In this document: positions 1 through 46,263 of the stretch, in pieces
Layout: each line of letters opens with the position of its first letter
Numbering within the stretch: the first letter of the stretch is position 1
Assembly: GCA_026929865.2 (NCBI GenBank)
Contig: CM049398.1
Span: 24,423,001 to 24,487,000 of the forward strand
Length of the DNA: 64,000 nt
Direction: 5' to 3'
Source: Hyperoplus lanceolatus
Lineage: Eukaryota; Chordata; Actinopteri; Uranoscopiformes; Ammodytidae
Notes under the pieces: model-generated
Database searches by the model: none
Seen by the model: the letters and a program-made list of their open reading frames with translations, nothing else
What the model was told of the DNA's origin: nothing
Made by a program: the position numbers and the translations under genes

Positions 1-530
1 TTTCCAAAAAGTTTGAATAAATATGAAAAATCATCAGTAACTTACTAATGATGCGTAAATTTGCATATCTGCAAAGCCCCAAAATCTAGATGTTGGACAA
101 AAGCAGAGTCAATTTGTTTTTAAATTTTGAAAACAATACAAGTGTCCAACTGCCTGAAGCTTTTCCTAATCACAGTTCAAATTTGATCAATAACCCATAG
201 AAAATGAATTTTTTTACACTGTTTTTTCCAAGGGAACGTCTAGCCGTAAAATACCAGCTGGAGACTCCAAAAGGACACTTTTGGTCCATGGCACATGAAA
301 TGTAACTGTGTAAAAAATTTATTTTCTATGGGTTATTGATCAAATTTGAACTGTGATTAGGAAAGGCTTCAGGCAGTTGGACACTTGTTTTGTTTTCAAA
401 ATTTAAAAACAAATTGACTTTGTTTTCTTCCAAAATCGAGATTTTGGGGCTTTGCAGATATGCTAATTTACGCATCATTAGTAAGATATTGATGATTTTT
501 CATATTTATTTAAACATTTTGGAAAATACT
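1..530. repeat. Long inverted repeat (foldback/hairpin), about 525 bp
   Basis: The first ~220 bases recur as their reverse complement at about 305-525, separated by an ~85-base loop. Matching landmarks include ATTTGATCAATAACCCATAG at 191-210 against CTATGGGTTATTGATCAAAT in the other arm, and GATGCGTAAAT against ATTTACGCATC. The arms carry scattered mismatches, so the copy is not brand new. The left arm may continue beyond the window edge, so its true end is unknown. No coding potential was seen. A short piece near 568-606 (AGTTTCATAATGATAT followed by AGTTAAAAAA) resembles 19550-19587, hinting at a dispersed family. Confidence 0.8.
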
Positions 531-1232
531 GTAATACAAAAAGTTTTTGTTTTAATGTCAGTAATCAACTGGCAAAGTTTCATAATGATATCTATAAGTT
601 AAAAAAATTCCCCTTTAGCCCATCCCCATTCACCCCCATTCACTTAAACAGTGGTTCTGATTTGCTATGTCGGCCTGCTGTAGCTTTCCAGCAGCTTGTT
701 GACAAGGTTGTCCACCCAGGTTGTGATCGTGGAAGGTCCTAGATGTCATTTTTGGTGAACAACCTTTTACAACACTCCATGTCCATAAAATCACTTTGCC
801 CCCTGGGTATATCCTATTTCCATAGGAACAATCCAGTGAATGTATTGCAGTTTACACATTGCTGCTATAACACCGATGGCTGCCAATTATAGGACTATTT
901 AAAACAAATGTTTTTGGTTGCAACTAACATAAATAAGAAAATATGTCGGAGCAAACAATTTACATGTGTAAGTAACAATATCTTGATAATCTGAGTAACC
1001 GTGACGAAATTCAATGTTTGTTATGCTATGGAAATGACTTTCTGCATCTGCAATATAGGTTACCCTTGCAGAATGTTATAATTCTGTATTATTTGCATTC
1101 AGAACTACCTATGTAACTGACGGTCCATTGCGAGTACAAGGGCAAGTGGGTTCCATTTAAATCCTCCGCTCCTCCCCCGCCCAGTCTCCCTCCGCACTCC
1201 AAGTTACCTCCATGCAACGTATGCTGTTACGT
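531..1232. other. Unannotated AT-rich spacer
   Basis: I see no gene, RNA or recognised repeat here apart from the short tail similarity noted for the preceding hairpin. A pyrimidine-rich patch sits at 1160-1200, just before the palindrome-rich element. Confidence 0.5.
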
Positions 1233-1563
1233 ATGGCAAGCCGAATTATCATTTATCAACTAAGTTTGACTATCCGGAATTAACATTGCGGATATCCACA
1301 ACTTATTTATGACTAGTCGTAATTACATGTTGAATAGTTGGATTTTTCATTCAAGATATCTGCAACGTAGTTGTGACTAGTCGAAACGACAGATAGAGAT
1401 ATCTGTAATTCAGTTTTGACTAGGCGAAACTGAATTAGAGATATCTGAAATGACGTCACGGAAAGCGACATTCAACTCGTCACACATCTTAAATGACAAT
1501 TGCAGATATCTATAATTCAGTTTTGACAAGGCAGAATGGAAGTTAAAGATATCTCAAAGGTCA

Positions 1564-2160
1564 TTATGCAAGCCAATTTAACATAAATTCAATAGACTGG
1601 ATATGTGTTGCAGATATCTGTAATTCAATTTCGCCTAGTCAAAAAGAACATTTCGGATATCCGCAACTACATTCCTCCTATCCACAACTATTATTTCGGA
1701 TATCCACAACGACATTCCGCCTAGGAGAAATGACGTCATTTTTGCCATTCATGTCTATGGGGTTTCTCATTAGAGATATCTACAATTCAGTTGCGGATAT
1801 CCACAATGTGAATTACGGATACCTGCAACTGAATTGTAGATATCTGTAACTCCAGTTTAAGATATCTACAATTTGATTCTGACTAGTCACAATTCCAGTA
1901 AAAGATATCTTTAATTCACCTCAATTCCAGATATCTACAAGTCCCTTTTCAGATATCTTAAATTAAGTTTTGACTAGGCAAAATTAAGTTGTAGATATCT
2001 CTAACTAGAGTTATGACTAGTCGAAATGAAGTTGTAGATATCTCTAACTGGAGTTAGGGATAGTCATAATTTAATTGTAGATATCTATAATCAAGTTATA
2101 GATATCTTGAAATGAGTTTTGATTAGAGATATCTACAATTGTAGATATCTGTAACTTTCA
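1564..2160 (+). repeat. Direct repeat unit 1 (~601-bp period) in polypalindromic element
   Basis: This stretch (landmark ACATAAATTCAATAGACTGG at 1581) recurs 601 bp downstream with only scattered substitutions. It includes its own copies of the element-end motif (here ATGCAAGCC) and of the TGACGTCA site. Confidence 0.8.
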
Positions 2161-2162
2161 TT

Positions 2163-2760
2163 ACTATGGCAAGCCGTTTTAACATAAATTCAATAGACTG
2201 GATGTGTGTTGCAGATATCTGTAATTCAATTTCGCCTAGTCAAAAAGAACATTTCGGATATCCGCAACTACATTCCTCCTATCCACAACTATTATTTTGG
2301 ATATCCACAACGACATTCCGCCTAGGAGAAATGACGTCATTTTTGCCATTCATGTCTATGGGGTTTCTCATTAGAGATATCTACAATTCAGTTGCGGATA
2401 TCCACAATGTGAATTACGGATATCTGCAACTGAATTGTAGATATCTATAACTCCAGTTTAAGATATCTACAATTTGATTCTGACTAGTCACAATTCCAGT
2501 TAAAGATATCTTTAATTCACCTCAATTCCAGATATCTACAAGTCCCTTTTCAGATATCTTAAATTAAGTTTTGACAAGGCGAAATTAAGTTGTAGATATC
2601 TCTAACTGGAGTTAGGACTAGTCGAAATGAAGTTGTAGATATCTCTAACTGGAGTTAGGGATAGTCATAATTTAATTGTAGATATCTATAATCAAGTTAA
2701 AGATATCTTGAAATGAGTTTTGATTAGAGATATCTACAAATGTAGATATCTGTAACTTTC
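2163..2760 (+). repeat. Direct repeat unit 2 in polypalindromic element
   Basis: This is the second copy of the 601-bp unit and starts with ATGGCAAGCCG, the same motif as the outer end of the element. Its 94-codon open frame reads through palindromes and recurs only because the DNA repeat recurs, so I do not treat it as a gene. Confidence 0.8.
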
Positions 2761-3739
2761 ATTTCGCCTAGTCAAAAAGTAATTACAGATATCTTGAATT
2801 AGAGTTTTGACTAGGCGAAATGACGTCAGCCGGAATTGTCATTAATCAATTTGTTTGACTATCCGGAACTTTTTTCCGACTAGTCGTAATTACATGTTGA
2901 ATAGTTGGATTTTTCATTCAAGATATCTGTAATGTAGTTGTGACTAGTCGAAACGACAGATAGAGATATCTGTAATTCAGTTTTGACTTGATTATAGATA
3001 TCAACAATTAAATTATGACTATCCCTAACTCCAGTTAGAGATATCTACAACTTCATTTCGACTAGTCATAACTCCAGTTAGAGATATCTACAACTTAATT
3101 TCGCCTAGTCAAAACTTAATTTAAGATATCTGAAAAGGGACTTGTAGATATCTGGAATTGAGGTGAATTAAAGATATCTTTAACTAGAATTGTGACTAGT
3201 CAAAACTGAATTACAGATATCTGCAATTGTCATTTAAGATGTGTGACGAGTTGAATGTCGCTTTCCGTGACGTCATTTCAGATATCTCTAATTCAGTTTC
3301 GCCTAGTCAAAACTGAATTACAGATATCTCTATCTGTCGTTTCGACTAGTCACAACTACATTACAGATATCTTGAATGAAAAATCCAACTATTCAACATG
3401 TAATTACGACTAGTCAGAAAGAAGTTGTGGATATCCGCAATGTTAATTCCGGATAGTCAAACTTAGTTGATAAATGATAATTCGGCTTGCCATACATTTC
3501 GCCTAGTCAAAACTGAATTACAGATATCTCTATCTGTCGTTTCGACTAGTCACAACTACATTACAGATATCTTGAATGAAAAATCCAACTATTCAAAATG
3601 TAATTACGACTAGTCGGAAAAAAGTTCCGGATAGTCAAACAAATTGATAAATGACAATTCCGGCTGACTTCATTTCGCCTAGTCAAAACTCTAATTCAAG
3701 ATATCTGTAATTACATTTTGACTAGGCGAAATGAAAGTT

Positions 3740-4327
3740 ACAGATATCTACAATTGTAGATATCTCTAATCAAAACTCATTTCAAGATATCTATAACTTG
3801 ATTATAGATATCTACAATTAAATTATGAATATCCCTAACTCCAGTTAGAGATATCTACAACTTCATTTCGACTAGTCATAACTCCAGTTAGAGATATCTA
3901 CAACTTAATTTCGCCTAGTCAAAACTTAATTTAAGATATCTGAAAAGGGACTTGTAGATATCTGGAATTGAGGTGAATTAAAGATATCTTTAACTGGAAT
4001 TGTGACTAGTCAGAATCAAATTGTAGATATCTTAAACTGGAGTTACAGATATCTACAATTCAGTTGCGGATATCCGTAATTCACATTGTGGATATCCGCA
4101 ACTGAATTGTAGATATCTCTAATGAGAAACCCCATAGACATGAATGGCAAAAATGACGTCATTTCTCCTAGGCGGAATGTCGTTGTGGATATCCGAAATA
4201 ATAGTTGTGGATAGGAGGAATGTAGTTGCGGATATCCGAAATGTTCTTTTTGACTAGGCAAAATTGAATTACAGATATCTGCAACACACATCCAGTCTAT
4301 TGAATTTATGTTAAAACGGCTTGCCAT
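3740..4327 (-). repeat. Inverted copy of the 601-bp unit in polypalindromic element
   Basis: This is the reverse complement of units 1 and 2 and ends in CGGCTTGCCAT. With the upstream copies it could form a stem of about 590 bp. The block 3190-3497 is likewise the inverse of 1233-1565, and 3500-3740 the inverse of about 2760-2990. Confidence 0.75.
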
Positions 4328-4443
4328 AGTTACGTCATACCAAGGGCTGAGGGTAAATGAACGAGGGGAAGTGCAACTACTTTTGGAATGCAGCTTGGGT
4401 GTACAGTGCATTTCCCAGCTTTCGCCGGAGAATCTACAGTCGT

Positions 4444-4873
4444 CCAATCAGCGAACAGAGCGAGTGGCTAGTTCCGAGTAGTTCCGAGTTTCGACCTGTC
4501 TGTGTTCCAGTGCATATGCTCGCGAAAGTATGGACGCCTAAAACCTTTCTCGTCCAAATAACTAAACGTTAGGCTCTAACAAGTTACTGTTGCCAGGTAC
4601 CGGTAGATTCATATACTACAATATGTAGTGAAGTCGGAAATTTCCGAGTTCCCTGTCCAACTGGAACGCACCGTCAAAAGCCGGCTCATGACACACGTGA
4701 CGACCAAATGTGATGCGATTGGTTGACTAATCCAGAGTGGCACTGGGCAGATCCAATAGTTTTAAACTTCGACAGACACCCGCCTCCAAGTGAGTGAACG
4801 TTTGCCAATTACAGCACTTCCAGACCTTCTGTACAAATGAAATGAAGTACGATGGTCTGGTTGGACCAGGCTA
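4444..4873. mobile_element. Partial copy of a TAGCCTGG-type element
   Basis: This matches the complete copy at 51386-51983, sharing CCAATCAGCGAACAGA near its start and ACACCCGCCTCCAAGTGAGT, then ending in CCAGGCTA. The left terminal repeat is not visible, so the copy is truncated or diverged on that side, next to the polypalindromic element. No coding capacity. Confidence 0.65.
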
Positions 4874-6452
4874 ACACAGCATCAAGCAGGAGATACAATG
4901 TAGCGTCGCGCAGCAATGGGATAAAGTATACCCAACTTTCAGCAGCTCTCACGGATTATCCTAGAGGAGTTGCATTTCAACTTTTTAAGATGTGTTAATA
5001 GACACCTTTACAAACACATTGTTGAAGGAAGCTAGTGGTTATGAATTTATTACCAGATTTTCACAATATGCCCTCACTAGTGTATATCTAAATGACTGAC
5101 TTTTTTGTTAACATTATAATTGCATTTCTTTATTTTTTTACTGATCAGACTCTGCAAAAGCTGCTGTTCTCCCTCATCCATGTTACAGTATTTCACAAAT
5201 TGTGCTACGCTAAAATGTTATATTCATATTCTTCTTTAATTAATAATTTTATCAGGCTATTTAACAGGGCCATCTTATGTTGTCTAAAATTGTCCGTCAC
5301 CCTCAGTTTGTGTTCTTTATCTTACTTGGCTTCACTAGGGAGCGATTGAGCCTGGTAACGTACCATTTTACCAGTCAGTTAACTTCTGTTTCTGGGTGTG
5401 CTTCAGTCAGAAGAAGAACAAGCTGGTATAAAATGATTCATTATTGTGCAACTGTATGGCCTATTATTTTTTTATCTCAAATATAGTCAGAACATATTTT
5501 TTAACCAAAATAAGTAAAAGTACATATTTTGGATGCAGTTAAATACTTTTTTGTCGAAATACCCTTTGACCGCAATTGTCACTGAGCAAGTCTTCACTGG
5601 AGCCTTGTGTAATACTACATGCTGTGCTATATTCACCAAAGAGCTGTCCCTGTTTCCATAGTGTAAGAGGGCTATTTTTAGAAAGGCAGGGGTTTCTAAA
5701 TAAGAGATGAAAGCTTGGGTTTTGATCAATGCAGACCAAAGAGAAGGAGGAGGCAGCCCTTTTTATGACGAACTGCAGGACCTATGGGATTGCCCTTGCT
5801 CTAAATGCAGGAATCCATCATTACACATAATACTATTTAAGGAGCTGTGTTATTAAGTTTGCGTATGACCCCAATGAAAACCCTCAACATTTGTGAGGAA
5901 GCCTTGTGCGATAGTCTGTCTTTGTGTCTTGTAGCTTTGTTCCTGTTCATTTTACTCTATATAAGTAGTAAATGACTAATGTCCCCTTGTTACTGTGTTT
6001 GTAGTTACAGCTGGCTGGTGGAAGTGTGCCTCAGCAGAGTTGGGCTCTGTTAAGAAAGAGAAGAGTCTGTTGTGAATGAAATCATTTGCAATACAAAGTG
6101 TTCATTCTACTTCACAGCAACTTTGTTTGCAATCGGATGCCAATGTGACTGGAGCTCTTGTAAGATTTAGATGGTAGATTAGCACAGGAAAGGGAAAAAA
6201 GGTGGGGATGGAGTGAAGTCTCTTACATGAGCAGGGTATAATCTCATCATAGCTTCAGAGCACGTAATATTCCCCTATCCATGGGGAGAACATACTGCAT
6301 CTTTACTGTGCCGCATGATGGACTCCTACTGTACATGAATGTGTTTTTATAGGGCAAGTTTGTTTAGTATATTCTCCACATCGTAGTTAGTACATCAATA
6401 GCATCATGCCTGTAAGGGAGACAATTGCTCTGAAGCGGAGTATTAATAATAT
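4874..6452. other. Unannotated intergenic stretch
   Basis: The sequence is AT-rich with only short open frames lacking recognisable domains. I see no splice-bounded exon, RNA gene or clear repeat. Confidence 0.5.
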
Positions 6453-12942: not shown

Positions 12943-13828
12943 CGTTTAAAACCTTATACATTAAACAAACATCCAAAAACTGTTGAAAACTATCAAGGTC
13001 CATGATTTTATGCTTATTAACAATTTTACAATAGTGGTAGGATATGGGTTTTTTGTCTAGTATTTTAAGTGTTCTTTTGAATAGAGATTTGATTGGTTTA
13101 AGGGTGGTCTCAGATGTGTGTCACCATGTTGTATAACAGTACGAGATATGGGCAAAAATCATTGCGTGCATATAAGTCTTTGCCGTCTCCATGGTCAGGA
13201 AAGGTCTTATATGCTTGAAGTTGGATACATGAAATGTAATTGTATCTCTAACTTTCTGAACATGCCGCTCAAAGTTCAGACCAGAATCAAAAATGACCCC
13301 AAGGTACTTAAAATGATCAACAACTTCAAGCCTCTCTTCACCCACCATGACAGAAGGTTGCTGTCCGTCTGTTGGCCGTCGAGAGAACAACATACAAACT
13401 GTTTTCCTTATATTCAAATGCAGACAGCAGCTCTGGAGCCAATGGGACACTGGTACCATAGCTCCTGAAAGCATTGCAGCAGCTTCTTGAATAGACCTGG
13501 CATGGCAGTACAATACAGCGTCATCAGCATATAGTTGCATATTAATATTTCTACAGACATCTGGTAAATCATTGACATACAGGCTTAATAAGACAGGGCC
13601 CAATATCGAGCCCTGTGGTACACCAGCAGTACATGTGAGGTATGAAGACAGAGAATCACCAATTTGAACTGCCTGTTTTCTGTCCGACAGGTATAATTTC
13701 ATCCAACAGAGGGCATTATTTGAGAAATTAAAATTAGTTAATTTAGCAATAAGCAAGTCATGATTAATGGTGTCAAAAGCACACTTTAGATCCAAAAATA
13801 CCGCAGCTACAAAGCCGCCCTGATCCAT
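12943..13828 (-). pseudogene. CR1/L2-type LINE reverse transcriptase fragment
   Basis: The minus-strand frame at 13828-13121 (235 codons) carries the reverse-transcriptase core. LDLKCAFDTINHDLL is the palm motif with the first aspartate, followed by AGVPQGSILGPVLLSLYVND, then MQLYADDAVLY with the catalytic YADD, then FKYLGVIFD. The frame then meets an in-frame TGA at 13118-13120 but stays open for ~58 further codons to the hAT insertion. The 5' end is truncated near 13830, removing the endonuclease. Family assignment within CR1/L2/Rex1 is uncertain. The copy is non-functional. Confidence 0.85.
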
Positions 13829-13829
13829 C

Positions 13830-15514
13830 CTGATAAATACATTACCTCATCATGATGCATCCTGTGATATCTATTTCACCCGCTTCTTAAACAAAGCTTG
13901 TGCGCTTTTTTCATAAAAGCACTACCGCTTTGGCCAATGGTCCAAAAAAAATATATATATTTTATTCCACCCTTAGGATACATAAAGGGCAAGGCATAGT
14001 TGTGTTCCTCCTGGGTAAGATTAGCAACAAAGATTTGATTTACAGTAGAGAGCAGCAAAGAATTCAAATGTATTACATTAGACCCTCCACATATATCCGT
14101 CGATGTTAACAAAGAAGGCTATGAGAGAGTGCAGAAGGCTGTGTTTACTATTAGCATTGTTTCTGCTTTATTTTCCTTGCCTTGGCCCATATACAGCAAC
14201 ACTCTTTTTTCATTAAATAGTGTCAGCACATCAGCTCCTCAGTCAAGGTTAAACACTTGGTGAGAGAGTTATTTTGTTTTCTGATCTATGCTGTGATGCG
14301 CCCTTTAACCCATAAAACATTCGGCCACATCTGTGACATTTATTGTGTGCAGTGGGTGGGGGATCTGTAGAGGTGGTCTCTGATTTTTTTTGTGGAAATC
14401 AACAGAATGTTCAATGGTCTGTGATAAACATAGTGTCGTTTTTAGGGAAGAAAGACATTAGGGAGAGATAAACTTGGGCTGGTGCATGGTGATTGATTAG
14501 CATTGTATGTATTAATTAGATCAGACTGTGGCCATGTGTGAGTGTGTTTGTGCATCAGAAGTGCAGCCTGTGATTGTGACTACTGGTTATCATATCTGCC
14601 TGTGTGTTCCTGTATACTGTGTCTTTTTGATCATTTGTGTGTGTTGTGGAGGGGGAGAGTGGCTTAACTTCGTCATCATCACCCTCTACCTTGCTTGTAC
14701 CTTGCAGTCCTATCACCTCCCTCTAACCTGTAGGTATTAACGTGGAGACAGCGACACTGACTGACACTAGACCGGACCCGAGTCCACAGCATGGGCACAG
14801 CCTGGGACAACAGTGCCTTCCTATGCTTCAGCAATTTTAAAATGACCAAATGGTGACAACCAGAAACCTCCAAGCGTTTTCAGGACACCAGCATCAATAT
14901 TCAAAGGCTGACAGTTGGTGCCTTCCTCTTTAGCATTAGCAACAGCAGCTAATGTAACAGCTTTGGCACCATGGACAGTAGCCTAGCCAATGTGTAAGTG
15001 AGTGGTTGTGTATGTATGTAACCTGGCCTGCAAGTCCCTGGGGAGGACCAGCAAAGGAGTTGTGTTTCACTCCCTGACAGGCCTTATACATGTTTCATCT
15101 GCTGCTCTCAGAACAGAAGCCCCTTTTGTTATCTTATCCAACCCTGTCCTCTCCAGCCTGAGAGACTGAGTTAACTGCCACAAGACTGCTCTTCAGTCTG
15201 TCAGCCAGCCACTGAACTGATACACATCAACCAACGGCTGAGGAGAAGGAGAAGGACTTGGTTAGGCACCAATATATGGTATCAGGGCTTCTCAGCCGGT
15301 CTAAAAGGAATTTAAGGAGGCAGTGTGAGGTCCACCAGAGAATGTCAAGGATCTAAATTGTGCCTCAACTGTTCAGCACTAAACCTCAACTTCTTGTGAT
15401 TCTCTACCCTTCAAGCTTTGGAACTACATCATTTTTTTATTTCATATTTACAAGGTTCTCATGATAGAAGTGCTTTAAGGGTTGTATTTGCACTTTAGTA
15501 CGCTAGTCAAGACT
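13830..15514. other. Region upstream of the first GRAMD1B coding exon
   Basis: No transposon was clearly recognised and no coding exon is supported. The last few hundred bases (about 15050-15514) are less AT-rich and may hold the 5' UTR and promoter of the long GRAMD1B transcript, but I cannot place a start site. In-frame stop codons lie just upstream of the ATG, so the open frame does not extend further unless spliced. Confidence 0.4.
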
Positions 15515-18866: not shown

Positions 18867-20516
18867 TGTGAGTACCAGATCTGCACGGGCTGCCAGATCT
18901 GCACGGGGTCCTGCGCCTACTGATGACGTATCGACACTTGACGTTGTCACCATAGATACCGCTACGCTACGGCAAAGCAATGTGGACATACACAACATTT
19001 GAAAAGATCGCGATAGCTGATGGTGCGATAGCTTAGCGAGTAAGCTAACTATAGATAGTTTATATACTATCTGTGTGAAACTCAAACAACATGTAAAAGA
19101 TCGCGCTAGCTGATAGCTTAGCCAGTAGGCTCCATAGATAGATCGATTTATTTATTGTATATACTATCTGTGTGAAACTCAAACAACATGTAAAAGATCG
19201 CGCTAGCTGATAGCTTAGCCAGTAGGCTCCATAGATAGATAGATTTATTTATTGTTCTGCAAGGTTTAAAATGAGTTGTTACGTTTGGCTTATAGTAGTC
19301 ATCTCTCATTATTAAGGTTAAATTACATTTTATTTTATACGAATTTATAGTTTAGCAAGGTTTAACCCCCGGTTTGAACCCTGTTTGAGTGCTAAATTAA
19401 ACATTTATTTAATAATACTTTAAACATTAAATGAGTATTTTAGTTTAATGTACTCTAGCATGTATTTTAAGAAATAATATTTTATTAAAAGAACAACTAT
19501 CCCCTGGGTTCACTGTTATTTTACATCACACTGAAAAACAATGTGTATAATGAGAGTTTCATAATGATATTTATCAGTTAAAAAATGTAAAGGTGTGGCT
19601 CTGATGTACAATTTCCAGCCCCTGGAGCATTTGTAGTGTCTTGCATCACTGATAAATAGATTCATTCATTCAACCTTCATTAAATAAAATAAAAAAGTAC
19701 ATCAGATTTTGTTTAATCTGATTTGTATTTTTCTTATTCAACCACATATACCACCTTTTGTAGTGTCCATCGACTGTCCAAACAGCAAACTAGCCTAAAA
19801 TTTACAGTGAGTCTCTGCAGAACATTTCTCAATGGGAATAGTTCACTTAATGTGTGACACAGCAGGTGAATAGGGTACACTTTTGGAATAATAGATATCA
19901 TGAAGCTCTGCTAGTTGATCACATTAAAACAATACATTTTTGTATAACAACTTTTGTTTGAAACATCTAGATGTTGAATAAAGCCAGTGTTGAATCTTAA
20001 TTCTCATTAATTCTTTTTATTATTTATTTTCATGATTGATGGGGTCCAGGATGGGCTGCACGATGGGGTCCTGATAACAGACAGGAAACAAAGTGTTAAA
20101 GAGATGTTCACGTTCCAATCCCCATACTTCCCTAACATATAGGCCGTTAGAAAAACATTGAGTTTGTCCCCATTATGAATATACACCATGTTAAAGTAAA
20201 ATATGTAAATATACTGTCCTGTTAGTGCTGCTATAACATTCAGCAAATAGTAACATTTATTTTTTCAAAGTTTAAGGTTCTGGACTAAGGACATGCAACG
20301 TTAATAAAGACTAACAGATGATTAATGGTAGAAGAAAAAAGTAAGACGGGATATATCCGAGCGGGAGAGATAGCGGGATATCCGGATAACCATAGCGCAT
20401 GCGCATTTAAAATAGCGCATGCGCATTTAAAAGACACCGTTTACAGGAAGTGCGTCATCATCACGCATCTAGGACCCCGTGCAGATCTGGCAGCCCGTGC
20501 AGATCTGGTACTCACA
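18867..20516. mobile_element. Element with perfect ~46-bp inverted ends, TGTGAGTACCAGATCTGCAC
   Basis: Both ends carry the same ~46 bp with no mismatch I could see. They contain two copies of a CCAGATCTGCACGGG block. Comparison with uninterrupted sister copies (GGCGGCCGCCTTA) shows that exactly CCGC is duplicated (18863-18866 and 20517-20520), a 4-bp target duplication. Inside is a ~97-bp tandem repeat. Near the right end, AGCGCATGCGCATTTAAAA is repeated twice (about 20394-20432). No transposase-like frame was found. The superfamily is undetermined. Confidence 0.8.
18990..19255. repeat. Tandem repeat, ~97-bp period, about 2.6 copies
   Basis: The block with landmarks ATACTATCTGTGTGAAACTC and AAAGATCGCGCTAGCTGATA recurs with a period of 97 bp (ATACTAT at 19064 and 19161), with a diverged partial copy in front. 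It lies wholly inside the 18867-20516 element. Confidence 0.8.
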
Positions 20517-28741: not shown

Positions 28742-29539
28742 TATTGATGTTTGAGGACGAGATATAAACAAAAGAATGTCGTCTGCATGCAACGAGAGAT
28801 GATGTTCTTGCTCATGTATCTCAACGGGGGATATTCATTTACTTTGTCTGACACTGGCAGCAAGCGGCTCAATAATTATTGAAAATAAAAAATGGGAGAG
28901 AGGGCACCCCTGACGGGTCCCACGGTTGATTGCAAAAGGGCATGAAATGTTTTGATTGGTGATAACGGAGGCAGTTGGGTGTGAATAAATGATCTCAATC
29001 CACTTCATAAAGGAGGGTCCAAAACCAAATTTTTCAAGTGTGATCAACATATAAGGCCACTCTACCTGATCAAACGCACGCTGTGCGTCCAGAGAGATTA
29101 CTACAGCCTCCTCTGTATGCTCCGTGTACAACACATGAAATAAACGACGCAAATTAAAATACATATGTCTCCCTGGCATGAAACCTGATTGGTCAGGATG
29201 AATTATGGAAAATATGTGCTCCTTTAATCTGTTAGCTAAGACTTTACCCAGGATTTTGGTTTCTATAGGCAACAGTGAAATGGGGCGGTATGATGAGACC
29301 AATTTAGGGTCACGGCCTGGCTTGGGTATAAGTGAAATGTTGGCTTTATATAATGTGGGAGGTAACCTAGAGTTCAGCATTGAGTGATTCAGCATACGTA
29401 ATAAGAGAGGCGATAATTTAGAGCTAAATTTTTTTTTAAATTCCATACTGAAGCCATCTGGCCAAGCTGCCTTATTATTGGGAAGGGAGGAGATCACTTC
29501 CATTATCTCATTAGAATTAATTTCTTTATCTAGTGAAAG

Positions 29540-29590
29540 AGATAATAATAATATAATAATAAATTTTATTTATATAGCGCTCTATGATTC
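29540..29590. repeat. Small ATA-repeat / LINE-tail insertion in L1
   Basis: AATAATAATATAATAATAAA is followed by TTTTATTTATATAGCGCTC, a motif common at the 3' end of fish retroposons. It interrupts the L1 ORF2 coding sequence upstream (5') of the reverse-transcriptase core. The boundaries are approximate. Confidence 0.5.
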
Positions 29591-30425: not shown

Positions 30426-31015
30426 CCGGAATTCCACTGGCTGCGCGTGCGGTGTCCAACGGTTTTGCTCCGTGCGCCCACGTTCGTCAATACCCACCGG
30501 CTCCGTTTTCAAAGCAGGCACGGCCAGCTCCGCTGAACAGCTGGAGTCGCGAGAACGAGGAGTTCCCGCGGTAATAAAAGTGACGGGCGATCGCTCTTGA
30601 TAATATGATTCTCCTATATGGTATTTACACAACAACGAACGCACGGAAGGTTATTGTTCCCATCCGAACGAGTAAAAGAACAGTGGACATGCTTGTATGT
30701 GTCTCTGTTTTGAGAATGTCACCTGCAGTGAACACAGTGTCTTATTTTGAAAATTAACCGGAGGTTTTATTGTTTTGTCGGCGCTTGTGTTCCTGTCTAT
30801 CTCGATGTGTTCTGTGCTAAATTGATGCGGTGAGCTCAGGCATCCGGCAGAAATAGAAGTAGTGCGTATTTCACCGGAGAGCTGGAGCAGCAGCGGAGCA
30901 GAGAGACGGTGCAGCGGACGTGGTGGAAACTCACCCACTGACTGCTCTTAATTGTATTACTGTTTCTGCCGTGCTGGAGCGGAGAAGGACCGGAGATGCA
31001 GCCGGTGGAATTCGG
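30426..31015. mobile_element. Element with CCGGAATTCCACTGGCTGC termini inside L1
   Basis: The left end CCGGAATTCCACTGGCTGC is mirrored by GCAGCCGGTGGAATTCGG on the right, with GC-rich arms. It breaks the L1 ORF2 between EAMKAV and IRGQIISYEA. The target duplication is unclear (possibly a worn GTTAAGG/GTCATTAGG). The superfamily is unknown. The GC-rich interior looks unlike the AT-rich L1 around it. Confidence 0.65.
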
Positions 31016-32271
31016 CCTTAACAGCCTTCATGGCCTCCCAAAGCGTGGAATCATCAACTTCACCAGTGTCATTCATTTGTACGTATTGATCTATTTGGTT
31101 TGAGAGATAAGAGCAAAATTCTTTATCTTTCAGTGTTGCATTATTTAGGCGCCAGCTAAATTCTCCCCTCTTGTAATTCAATTTAAGTTTTACAGAAACA
31201 GGGGCATGATCCGATATGAGAATATTATGATACTTGCAGTCAACTATTTGTTTTAAAAGTTTAGAATCCAGAATTAAATAATCAATCCTAGAATAAGACT
31301 TGTGAACTGCTGAAAAGAAAGAAAAGTCTTTAGCTGTGGGGTTTAGGAGCCTCCAAATATCCACTAGATTATACAACTGCATTAAATTATTAAGAGTAAC
31401 ACTGCTCGTAGATGAACTGGTTTGGGGGTGTTGTCTGTCTAAGATAGGATCCAAAACACAATTTAAATCTCCACCCAAAATTATATTTGAGTTTGACATA
31501 TCGGGTATAGTGTTGAAGAGATTCTGAAAGAAATTGGGATCATCAAAATTCGGCCCGTACACATTTATTAGGGTAACTGCTACAGAGTTAAGCTCCCCTT
31601 TAACTATTAAATATCTGCCCCTATGATCAGAAATAGTTTGCTTGTGGATAAAAGCTATTGTTGTCTTTATAAGGATCGCTAACCCTCTTGCTTTTGTAGA
31701 AAAATTTGATTGAAATACATGAGATGCCCATGAAGGACACAATATTTTTGCTGCCGTTGTTTTTATATGCATTTCTTGAAAGAAGAAAATATCAGCCTTG
31801 AGTGTGCGTAGATGTGCATAAACCTTTCTTCTCTTAAGTGGGCTATTGATCCCCTGTACATTCCAACTAACCAATGTAATTCCACCTTCACTGTGTTTAC
31901 AAGATGTAGGTCTACCTGACATAATATGCTACATAAGGAAATTTGTTAAATGACCATGGCAAAAAGGAATATAAAGTAAACTGAAAGAAAAGATGTGCAG
32001 ACAAAAAAAGAACATCGAACAGAACACATGAACATAGTCAAGGGGAGAGACAACCCCATGGATAACGCTTCCATGCCCCAGACTTAAAGTTAAAGCTAAA
32101 CTCGGGAGGCCAATAAAGGCCCAAGATAGCAAACAACTACTCACCTCTCTCCAAGCAAGGGAGAGACTCCACATCAACAGTGGATAATAATCGCAAATAA
32201 AACATTTGTCCTCTCAAATCTCAATGCGAGTTTGGTCTTATTTTATTCTTATTTTTTTTTTCTTCTTTCTA

Positions 32272-43768: not shown

Positions 43769-45496
43769 CATCATCATCATCTTCAGCCGCTTATCCGAAA
43801 TCGGGTCGTGGGGGCAGCAGCTTGAGCAGGGAACCCCAAACTTCTCTTTCCCGGGCCACATCAACCAGCTCTGACTGGGGGATCCCGAGGCGTTCCCAGG
43901 CCAGCGTGGAAATATAATCTCTCCATCTAGTCCTGGGTCTTCCCCGAGGCCTCCTCCCAGCTGGACGCTCCTGGAACACCTCCCTAGGGAGGCGCCCATC
44001 CTTACCAGATGCCCAAACTACCTCAACTGGCTCCTTTCAACGCAAAGGAGTAGCGGCTCTGCCCCGAGTTCCTCACGAATGACTGAGCTTCTCACCCTAT
44101 CTCTAAGGGAGACGCCAGCCACCCTCCTGAGAAAGCCCATTTCGGCCGCTTGTACCCACGATCTCGTTCTTTCGGTCATTACCCAGCCTTCATGACCATA
44201 GGTGAGGGTAGGAACAAAGATCGCCCGGTAGATCGAAAGCTTTGCCTTACGACTCAGCTCTCTTTTCGTCACAACAGTGCGGTAAAGCGAGTGCAAAACC
44301 GCCCCTGCTGCTCCGATTCTACGGCCAATCTCACGCTCCATTGTTCCCTCACTCGCAAACAAGACCCCGAGGTACTTGAACTCCTTCACTTGGGGTAAGG
44401 ACTCATTCCCTACCTGTATTAGACAATCCATCGGTTTCCTGCTGAGCACCATGGCCTCAGATTTAGAGGTGCTGATCCTCATCCCAACCGCTTCACACTC
44501 GGCTGCAAACCGATCCAATGAGAGCTGAAGGTCACAGGCCGATGATGCCATCAGAACCACATCATCCGCAAACAGCAGAGATGAGATCTTCAGACCACCA
44601 AACTGCAACCCCTCCCCACCACGACTACGCCTTGATATCCTGTCCATAAATATCACAAACAGGATTGATGATAAAGCGCAGCCCTGGCGGAGGCCAACCC
44701 CCACCGGAAACGAGTCTGACTTACTACCGAGAACCCGTACACAGCTCTCGCTTTGAGCATACAGAGATTGGATGGCCCTGAGAAGAGACACCCTCACCCC
44801 ATACTCCCGCAGCACCCCCCACAGTATCTCCCGGGGAACCCGGTCATAAGCCTTCTCCAGATCTACAAAACACATGTAGACTGGATGAGCAAACTCCCAA
44901 GCTCCCTCTAGGATCCTTGCGAGAGTGAAGAGCTGGTCCGTTGTTCCACGGCCAGGACGGAATCCGCATTGTTCCTCTTCAATCTGAGGTTCGACTATCG
45001 GCCGAACCCTCCTTTCCAGCACCTTGGAGTAGACTTTGCCGGGAAGGCTGAGAAGTGTGATACCCCGGTAGTTGGCACACACTCTCTGGTCCCCCTTTTT
45101 AAAAATAGGAACCACCACCCCGGTCTGCCACTCCTTCGGCACTGTACCCGACTTCCACGCAATGTTGAAGAGGCGTGTCGACCAAGACAGCCCCTCCACA
45201 CCCATTGCTTTCAGCATTTCTGGACGGATTTCATCAACCCCCGGGGCTTTGCCACTGTGGAGTTGTTTGGCTACCTCAGTGACTTCCACCAGGGAAATTG
45301 ACGATGATCCCCCATCAGCCTCCAGCTCTGCCTCCAACATAGAGGGCGTGTTTGTCGGATTCAGGAGTTCCTCAAAGTGCTCTTTCCACCGACCGACTAC
45401 CTCCTCAGTTGAGGTCAACAGCGTCCCATCCTTACTGTACACAGCTTGGATGATTCCCCGCTTCCCCCTCCTGAGGTGCCGGACGGTCTTCCAGAC
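43769..45496 (-). mobile_element. Rex3 (RTE-clade) retrotransposon, 5'-truncated
   Basis: It is inserted on the minus strand between two copies of GTCATAAATGT (43758-43768 and 45497-45507). The sister element at 21747-21770 has the single uninterrupted site, which proves the insertion and its 11-bp duplication. The 3' end is a short CAT repeat (CATCATCATCATC as read on +). It carries the segment matched by the classic Rex3 PCR primer pair as I remember them (the complement of ACCACCACCCCGGTCTGCCA at 45112-45131 is one of them). It is 1728 bp long, so the endonuclease part is missing. Confidence 0.92.
43791..45442 (-). pseudogene. Rex3 reverse transcriptase ORF, one frameshift from intact
   Basis: The frame 45442-44018 (474 codons) shows SGKAPGVDEIRPEML, GVVVPIFKKGDQRVCANYRG, EQCGFRPGRGTTDQLF, CFVDLEKAYDRVPREI, VGLRQGCALSSILFVIFMD and SLLFADDVVLMA with the catalytic FADD, then EFKYLGVLFASEG and TLTYGHEGWVMTERTRSW. 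It loses frame near 44018, and the tail resumes in another frame at 43979-43791 (RPAGRRPRGRPRTRWRDYI). The N-terminus and endonuclease are absent. The good state of the rest suggests a recent insertion. Confidence 0.92.
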
Positions 45497-46263
45497 GTCA
45501 TAAATGTGCTTTTATAAATACATTTTACTAACTTACTTACTTATAACTCACCCAGGCCCTTTGGCAAATCACCCCATCCCCAGAATTTTGGATAATAAGC
45601 ATGATGCAGCAGTTTAGGGCTGACATCGTGCTAACTGTATAGACTCAAAATGTAGCATACCAAAGCACTAAAACATCTGTCAAATGTTTTCAAACTTGTC
45701 TATAATTCTTCAGACACAATAATCAAAAAACCTTGATCATGGAAATTTTACTTTGAAAGGCAAAACACAGTTTTTTTAGCTTAAATGTGCTTATATCTTA
45801 TTTCTTGTGTCTCCCTTCTTTACAGGATGAGTCAAATGGATGGCTCTTCTTAAATATGTGGTCACATTTCCAATTTCTTCCACGGTTTTCTAGAAACAAG
45901 GGGTGGAACAACTTCCAAAATGCACAACTTAGGCCACTCTCCCCTATATTTATTAATGTATATAAACATGTATGTAACAGTATTCCATGCTTCATAGGTA
46001 GAGGTATAGGAGAGTTATAGTTTTTACACTCAATTATAAACACCATAATATGTCTTTGCTTCTGCTAAAACTACAGAGTATGTTATAGATATGTTATGTT
46101 TCATAAACCATTTATAAATAGTTTATGTGCTGCTTAAAAAGGGGAATGAAGTAATAGTCCAGTAAATATCTTACTATTAACAGTATTTGTTATTGGTGTA
46201 ACGCTGGAACCAGTGGCAGTCGATTCAGTTTCCCCTCACTGAATTGTGTCTTATCCTTTGCAG

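Follow-up and report, generated by a model that had tools for sequence, protein, structure and literature searches.

Nested non-autonomous DNA transposons with long arrays of regularly spaced palindromic sites in Hyperoplus lanceolatus

We analyzed a 64-kb stretch of DNA from Hyperoplus lanceolatus (the window) and found that a region near its left end (1233-4328) is dense in short palindromes. There are 101 eight-base reverse palindromes in this region, compared to a mean of 16.8 (maximum 27) over 18 equally long segments elsewhere in the window, and a mean of 18.8 (maximum 30) in 50 shuffled controls. The initial annotation had reported about 73 GATATC sites here, and the total is indeed 73 (the whole window holds 85). 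The region also contains 59 copies of AGATATCT, 12 of GGATATCC, 16 of GACTAGTC, and 13 of GCCTAGTC/GACTAGGC. The spacing of these sites had been given as 20-40 bp, a range that is too loose: distances are mostly 21/22 or 43 bp. The direct and inverted blocks that had been described are present, with inverted pairs of 826, 595, and 324 nt that match at 97-98%.

Several other features are found in the window. A separate fold-back element occupies positions 1-525 (arms 1-214 and 312-525, 93% complementary) and may extend past the window start. Open reading frames (ORFs) with matches to reverse transcriptase (13121-13846, 28835-29569, and 44018-45511, all (-)) and to an endonuclease (30957-31928 (-)) would be, by our reading, pieces of non-LTR retrotransposons. 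In addition, a 97-bp sequence is duplicated in tandem, and its copies match at 98% (19061-19255).

We found that the palindrome-dense region consists of two non-autonomous DNA transposons, one nested in the other. It had been annotated as a single element, a claim that proved wrong: one copy sits within another, as indicated by two extra complete terminal inverted repeats (TIRs) at 2165-2176 and 3483-3494. We rejected a single 3.1-kb element based on these nested TIRs and on copies elsewhere that are unfilled. The whole feature (1232-4328, + strand) is an outer element of the 1761-bp type that is split by the nested copy. Its AATTATC-type end (the A-end) starts with the TIR TATGGCAAGCCG at 1232-1243 (+), and its TTTTAAC-type end (the T-end) finishes with the TIR at 4317-4328 (-). 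The arrays of palindromic sites lie at 1290-2150 on the A-end side and at 3501-4280 on the T-end side (site positions). Inverted ends and a flanking duplication had been recognized before, and both exist. The ends, TATGGCAAGCCG..CGGCTTGCCATA, are one base longer than claimed, at 1232 and 4328, and the duplication is not the 7-bp GTTACGT but the 6-bp GTTACG, at 1226-1231 on the left and 4329-4334 on the right. The seventh base, T, belongs to the element on the left and to the flank on the right.

The nested copy (2165-3494, -) is 1330 bp, lies in the opposite orientation, and has its own TIRs and array. It is flanked by CATTAC on the left (2159-2164) and CATTTC on the right (3495-3500), a duplication in which 5 of 6 bases agree. 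Without 2165-3494 and one 6-bp duplication, the outer copy is 1761 bp and is the same as the family consensus at 1750 of 1761 positions over its full length. At 1328 of 1330 positions, the inner copy is identical to a copy on contig C7 (L034) that is flanked by its own duplication, CAACCA. Furthermore, the nested target is unfilled, with a single CATTTC, in 16 of the 17 aligned small copies. Based on the CATTAC/CATTTC flanks and these unfilled targets, we conclude that a copy consisting of little more than transposon ends (see below) jumped into another in the opposite orientation. A second self-nested locus (L014) has an inner copy without a perfect duplication. Ends-only derivatives can pile into each other in this way and then resemble one huge palindromic element.

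We searched the genome (807 Mb, 527 contigs) for other copies and for empty sites, as the initial annotation had proposed, and found both, the unfilled version being that of the nested site. The DNA search reported 222 matches, and 40 of 592 candidates were scored. Further loci were read at 39 places and then at 29 places with the TIR (9 + 20). Perfect 6- or 7-bp duplications flank 22 of 27 end pairs (18 tabulated copies plus the outer copy in the window, the outer copy at L014, L043, and L049). The five end pairs without one are L035, the inner copies at L014 and in the window, and two older relatives, L055 and L074. Fourteen of 21 tallied duplications are 6 bp and seven are 7 bp; L049 adds one of 6 bp outside the tally. 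The earlier proposal of a mobile element is thus borne out by the many copies, their duplications, and a nested site found both filled and unfilled.

The family was active recently, since there are copies less than 1% from the consensus. Length is 1746-1762 bp in 17 copies, and divergence from the consensus is 0.34-0.74% in fourteen (L009-L022). L024 and L026 are ~5% from the consensus, part of which is accounted for by an inverted middle, an arrangement that occurs among the copies, and L031 is rearranged. Older relatives diverge by up to 7-10%. Two older elements, L055 (501-830) and L074 (501-1721), have the same TIR and few, degenerate units (3 and 5).

We also compared the flanks of 21 insertions, including that in the window, to a background of 294 stretches that came from this window only, with the right end of the window's insertion set one base too far: GC content was 0.44 compared to 0.40, and CpG observed/expected was 0.70 compared to 0.46. 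GC content of the insertion flanks climbs to 0.50 within 20 bp. It is possible that these richer flanks indicate a target preference.

The arrays are composed of a 16-bp unit, TTNN-(8-bp palindrome)-NNAA, in which the core is AGATATCT, GGATATCC, GACTAGTC, or a near variant. Choosing units by the pattern TTN5TAN5AA alone, we found 66 in the consensus, compared to a mean of 2.35 (maximum 8) in 500 shuffles. The gap between units is 21 or 22 bp, that is, two helical turns, in 48 of 65 cases. Periodicity is strongest at 10.85 and 21.4-22 bp. In older elements, gaps of this size are found in 10 of 22 cases (L050) and 1 of 5 (L074).

The two halves of a unit tend to be of the same type. Among the 66 units, half-site types were AGA/AGA (32), GAC/GCC (9), GGA/GGA (8), GAC/GAC (8), GGA/GAC (2), AGA/GGA (1), and others (6), and an AGA half-site was paired with another AGA in 32 of the 33 units that have one. 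Our first count of this coupling chose units by symmetry, which favors coupling, and the count was repeated with 23 non-redundant units chosen by TTN5TAN5AA only. Complementary pairs at positions ±2, 3, and 4 occurred in 20, 18, and 21 of the 23 (permuted means 12.6, 11.0, and 10.9). At ±5 and 6 they occurred in 5 and 7 of the 23 (permuted means 6.7 and 5.5).

In older copies, we found that variation at the site positions (core ±1 to 4 and TT/AA at ±7, 8) is about half as frequent as at NN and spacer positions. Variable sites were counted in 46 loci (28 young and 18 older) among L009-L076 without L049, using usable BLAST chains and omitting CpG sites. In the 18 older loci, there were variants at 169 of 673 spacer positions and 71 of 235 positions N5,6, compared to 49 of 367 core positions (2, 3, and 4), 19 of 132 in the central TA, and 39 of 264 in TT/AA. 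Variants common to at least two young copies were found at 27/673 (spacer), 13/235 (N5,6), 4/367 (core), 4/132 (TA), and 2/264 (TT/AA). Variants private to one young copy were nearer even, at 36/673, 16/235, 13/367, 7/132, and 11/264, respectively. Since alignments of older copies suffer from internal repeats, and since Fisher values treat related copies as independent, we used a circular-shift control, which keeps the CpG sites. The ratio for older sites was 0.55, and none of 1760 shifts was as low; the next-best shifts were 43 bp in both directions, followed by 21 and 22 bp, the periods of the units. For shared young sites the ratio was 0.30 (1 of 1760 shifts as low), and for private young sites 0.66 (108 of 1760).

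A similar comparison was made with the ends of the larger element described below. Six A-ends of its type were compared to the consensus of the small copies. Differences in at least three of the six fell at 2 of 429 motif positions and 22 of 536 others (4 of 1016 shifts were as low), and private differences at 6 of 429 and 22 of 536 (p = 0.012). For the T-end, the differences (1 of 378 motif positions and 7 of 426 others, p = 0.07) were too few. It seems that selection keeps the array sites. The pattern fits filtering in mobile copies followed by decay after insertion, although the private classes are not flat. Since private changes are also low in the motifs, both in young copies and in the large-element A-ends, part of the signal could be mutational.

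The initial annotation had also proposed looking for an autonomous relative with the same ends. We found a ~13-kb transposon that ends in these arrays, although no copy seen has both tips intact. The Pfam integrase model rva_4 had 87 matches listed in this genome and none in 14 control genomes. The four best places (on C2, C9, C11, and C13) and a weaker one (C18) are flanked on both sides by array stretches; many of the remaining matches among the 87 listed belong elsewhere. On contig C9, three pieces (L040, L083, and L027) together span ~13.4 kb, with ~0.95 kb of array at the T-end and 1018 bp at the A-end. These arrays contain 35 and 37 units, and 26 of 34 and 27 of 36 gaps, respectively, are 21 or 22 bp. 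The interior was read on C9 and on C2, which match at 98.6-99.8% over five long pieces, and C11, C13, and C18 were located by matches rather than read across. The T-end tip is missing in C9 and C11, and C2 keeps two cores of an array that is mostly gone, so no complete parent was seen. There were no strong core sites in C9 between 10345566 and 10357008, nor in L083, where there were 7 loose motif matches and none at unit spacing.

The inside of the C9 element has a first ORF with a helix-turn-helix match slightly below the Pfam cut-off and an integrase ORF that matches rva_4 (PF24764, E = 1.8e-87), in which the second D and the E are 34 residues apart. Based on its position, we infer that the rva_4 gene serves the array ends. 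Two HECT-like ORFs are on the opposite strand (L083 7153-7443 and 7968-8618 (-); E = 4e-9, above the cut-off, and 0.0096, below it). These HECT (ubiquitin ligase) pieces might be a passenger or an accessory gene. A second family of rva_4 genes has four matches of near-equal score and the same ORF length (C1, C9, C21, and C31). No palindrome array was found around C1:4919413 in the 9.4 kb that were read (L086, C1:4914900-4924300), where the element ends were not located. The rva_4 gene in L086 adjoins a 645-bp GGTGGTGCAGAGGAGAAGGAG-type minisatellite. In addition, one small copy (L049) contains ~2.3 kb of other DNA (~834-3172) that, as judged by eye, resembles the remnant of an RTE-type element and has palindromes of the ACCAAACGGTTGA type. 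We considered this insert as the coding part of the parent and rejected it for that reason.

The small copies (1.3 and 1.8 kb) are the two ends of this parent joined together, with little more. The small consensus tracks the A-end of the parent as far as a shared AATTACAGATATCT and the T-end after it. Variants beside the join take two forms in 9 and 5 of the 17 aligned small copies and a third in L024 and L026; L031 is unreadable there. These forms suggest that the ends fused at palindrome units more than once, or that exchange at such units took place later. Joining at palindrome units appears to be a route to ends-only derivatives.

What are the arrays for? The reading best supported by the site-level constraint and the regular spacing is that they would be dense sites for a dimeric DNA-binding protein. 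More specifically, we think it probable that they are cooperative binding sites for a dimeric protein of the transposon, most likely the transposase; the constraint was counted, and the binding protein is what we infer. Several features fit rows of protein dimers along a single face of the DNA: TT/AA and the core are conserved, the NN between them is free, units are two turns apart, and the arrays lie at the ends rather than inside. Insertion of the elements has been recent, creates target duplications of 6 or 7 bp, and has also occurred within the family, one element into another. A transposon-encoded protein would bind each site as a dimer, which would account for the constraint, and many dimers on one face would assemble cooperatively into a complex that unites the two ends. 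The first candidate is the transposase, which has a helix-turn-helix-like first ORF, and it is a natural one, given that transposase sites arrayed at the ends are known from other elements (IS1535, hAT, piggyBac, piggyBat). Ends-only copies might thrive by retaining the entire platform for binding and borrowing the protein of the parent. The match in half-site type at ±2 to 4 is more than a simple dimer needs; descent of units from each other could be the cause. In addition, the older relatives with the same TIR (L055 and L074) have few units, so movement may not depend on dense arrays. We suggest, more tentatively, that this could be an integrase-type transposon whose synaptic complex is a long, regular nucleoprotein filament, with ~35 selected sites at each end, mostly on one face, and with the ends alone as a complete platform for mobilization.

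It is possible, but in our judgment unlikely, that a host protein, rather than the element's own transposase, recognizes the sites. The element would then exploit a chromatin protein or a factor of transcription or replication. The several core types and the pairing of AGA half-sites with each other could mean more than one binding protein, and insertion into DNA richer in GC and CpG than the rest of the window may hint at chromatin. However, the C9 arrays are at the two ends and not inside, the usual place of transposase sites, and we judge the number of sites to be far above what a promoter or origin needs.

We give still less weight to the notion that the arrays are a minisatellite by-product, in which slippage, unequal exchange, and fold-back template switching would have multiplied a double unit of 43 bp and the palindromes would have no function. 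A 43-bp periodicity is seen in the palindrome stretch, AGATATCT alternates with other sites in 31 of 48 neighbor pairs (expected 24, p = 0.04), and there are inverted arms and middles. Growth by whole units, which had been suggested before, was found in one copy, L033, which is longer by exactly 43 bp, or two units. However, duplication alone would preserve spacers and NN, and among 18 AGATATCT units, whose core identity is fixed by the choice of units, NN identity was 0.25 (chance 0.28) and spacer identity 0.38. Moreover, changes in older copies avoid the core and TT/AA in the true register. Least probable of all is selection on DNA or RNA structure rather than protein sites (cruciforms, hairpin RNA, small-RNA effects, or nucleosome exclusion): inverted arms are 595 nt long within the outer copy and 826 nt long where they span both nested elements, and the cores are self-complementary and coupled, but N5,6 is neither conserved nor self-complementary, which speaks against hairpins and would leave a single unit with a stem of only 4 bp, and a hairpin does not explain the conserved TT/AA beyond the NN gap.

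Transposon ends usually carry one or a few protein sites. Here, the constraint over ~35 sites at each end separates positions that are likely contacted from those that are free, and the recognition site of an unstudied transposase can thus be predicted before any experiment. Because the family was recently active and a coding parent is in the same genome, the reason for so many phased sites is testable.

Judging from termini, duplications, and integrase profile matches, we would file the family as IS3EU-like and consider it novel by its ends. Families that duplicate only TA were rejected, as the 6/7-bp repeats outside the TA are perfect in 22 of the 27 end pairs. The termini TATGG..CCATA (TATGGCAAGCCG..CGGCTTGCCATA) show the TA..TA of IS3EU/GingerRoot. 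In the available portions of the papers cited here, IS3EU elements generally have TA..TA termini and duplications of usually 6 bp (PMC10045372), and those of fungi have termini TAYGG..CCRTA and 6-bp duplications (PMC12730594). The 6-bp length of 14 of the 21 tallied duplications is a likeness, whereas the 7 bp of the other seven is a difference. Further likenesses are a helix-turn-helix-like first ORF in the parent and a transposase of integrase type that is related to IS481 and IS3. Against the IS481 model, the integrase ORF has E = 1.5e-5 and 24.6 bits, far short of the model cut-off of 224. In contrast to IS3EU as described in those portions of PMC10045372 and PMC12730594, the site arrays of ~1 kb and the HECT-like pieces are peculiar to the present element. 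There was no HHCC zinc motif in the three parent ORFs that were read (short unseen exons are possible), in agreement with IS3EU/GingerRoot. At E = 0.01, the integrase ORF had no match among PDB chains.

PiggyBac elements make a 4-bp TTAA duplication. We rejected piggyBac because none of the 21 tallied duplications is TTAA (one 6-bp duplication, TTAACA, starts with it). Polinton/Maverick elements have genes for a polymerase, a protease, and a capsid beside the integrase; the inside of the C9 element gave only helix-turn-helix, integrase, and HECT matches in the 8 ORFs that were scanned out of 10 listed with 90 aa or more, a scan that may miss short exons. Foldback (FB/TU-type) elements have long inverted arms made of short repeats. 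The present family is like them in this respect, but each unit here is palindromic, the TIRs are short with TA termini, and the parent encodes an integrase-type transposase. Dada elements, by the available part of PMC8869645, have 6- or 7-bp duplications, a feature that the present family matches. Dada inserts into multicopy small-RNA genes, and it was rejected because there are no RNA-gene targets here: at the gathering score, Rfam gave 0 matches in 20 loci and 0 in positions 1-6000 of the window.

Our literature search, with partial coverage, found no eukaryotic transposon with ends this long and regular, and the family may already be in Repbase or Dfam. The closest comparisons are with elements that have several transposase sites at their ends, again as far as the available portions of the sources describe them. 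In piggyBac and piggyBat, subterminal palindromes are recognized by the two C-terminal domains of a transposase dimer, and the left end of piggyBat has three sites at 44-bp steps, the third of which lowers activity (PMC11707139). These elements have few sites and a different transposase, compared to ~35 palindromic sites per end here. IS1535, of the IS607 family, has a serine transposase and a set of four direct motifs, each of 9 bp, that lie within ~40 bp; the motifs are helically phased, and transposase dimers form a cooperative filament on them (PMC6188088). The hAT elements have many subterminal repeats with variable spacing (PMC6188088). In contrast to both IS1535 and hAT, the present family has ~35 palindromic sites at each end, mostly at a spacing of two helical turns, over ~1 kb.
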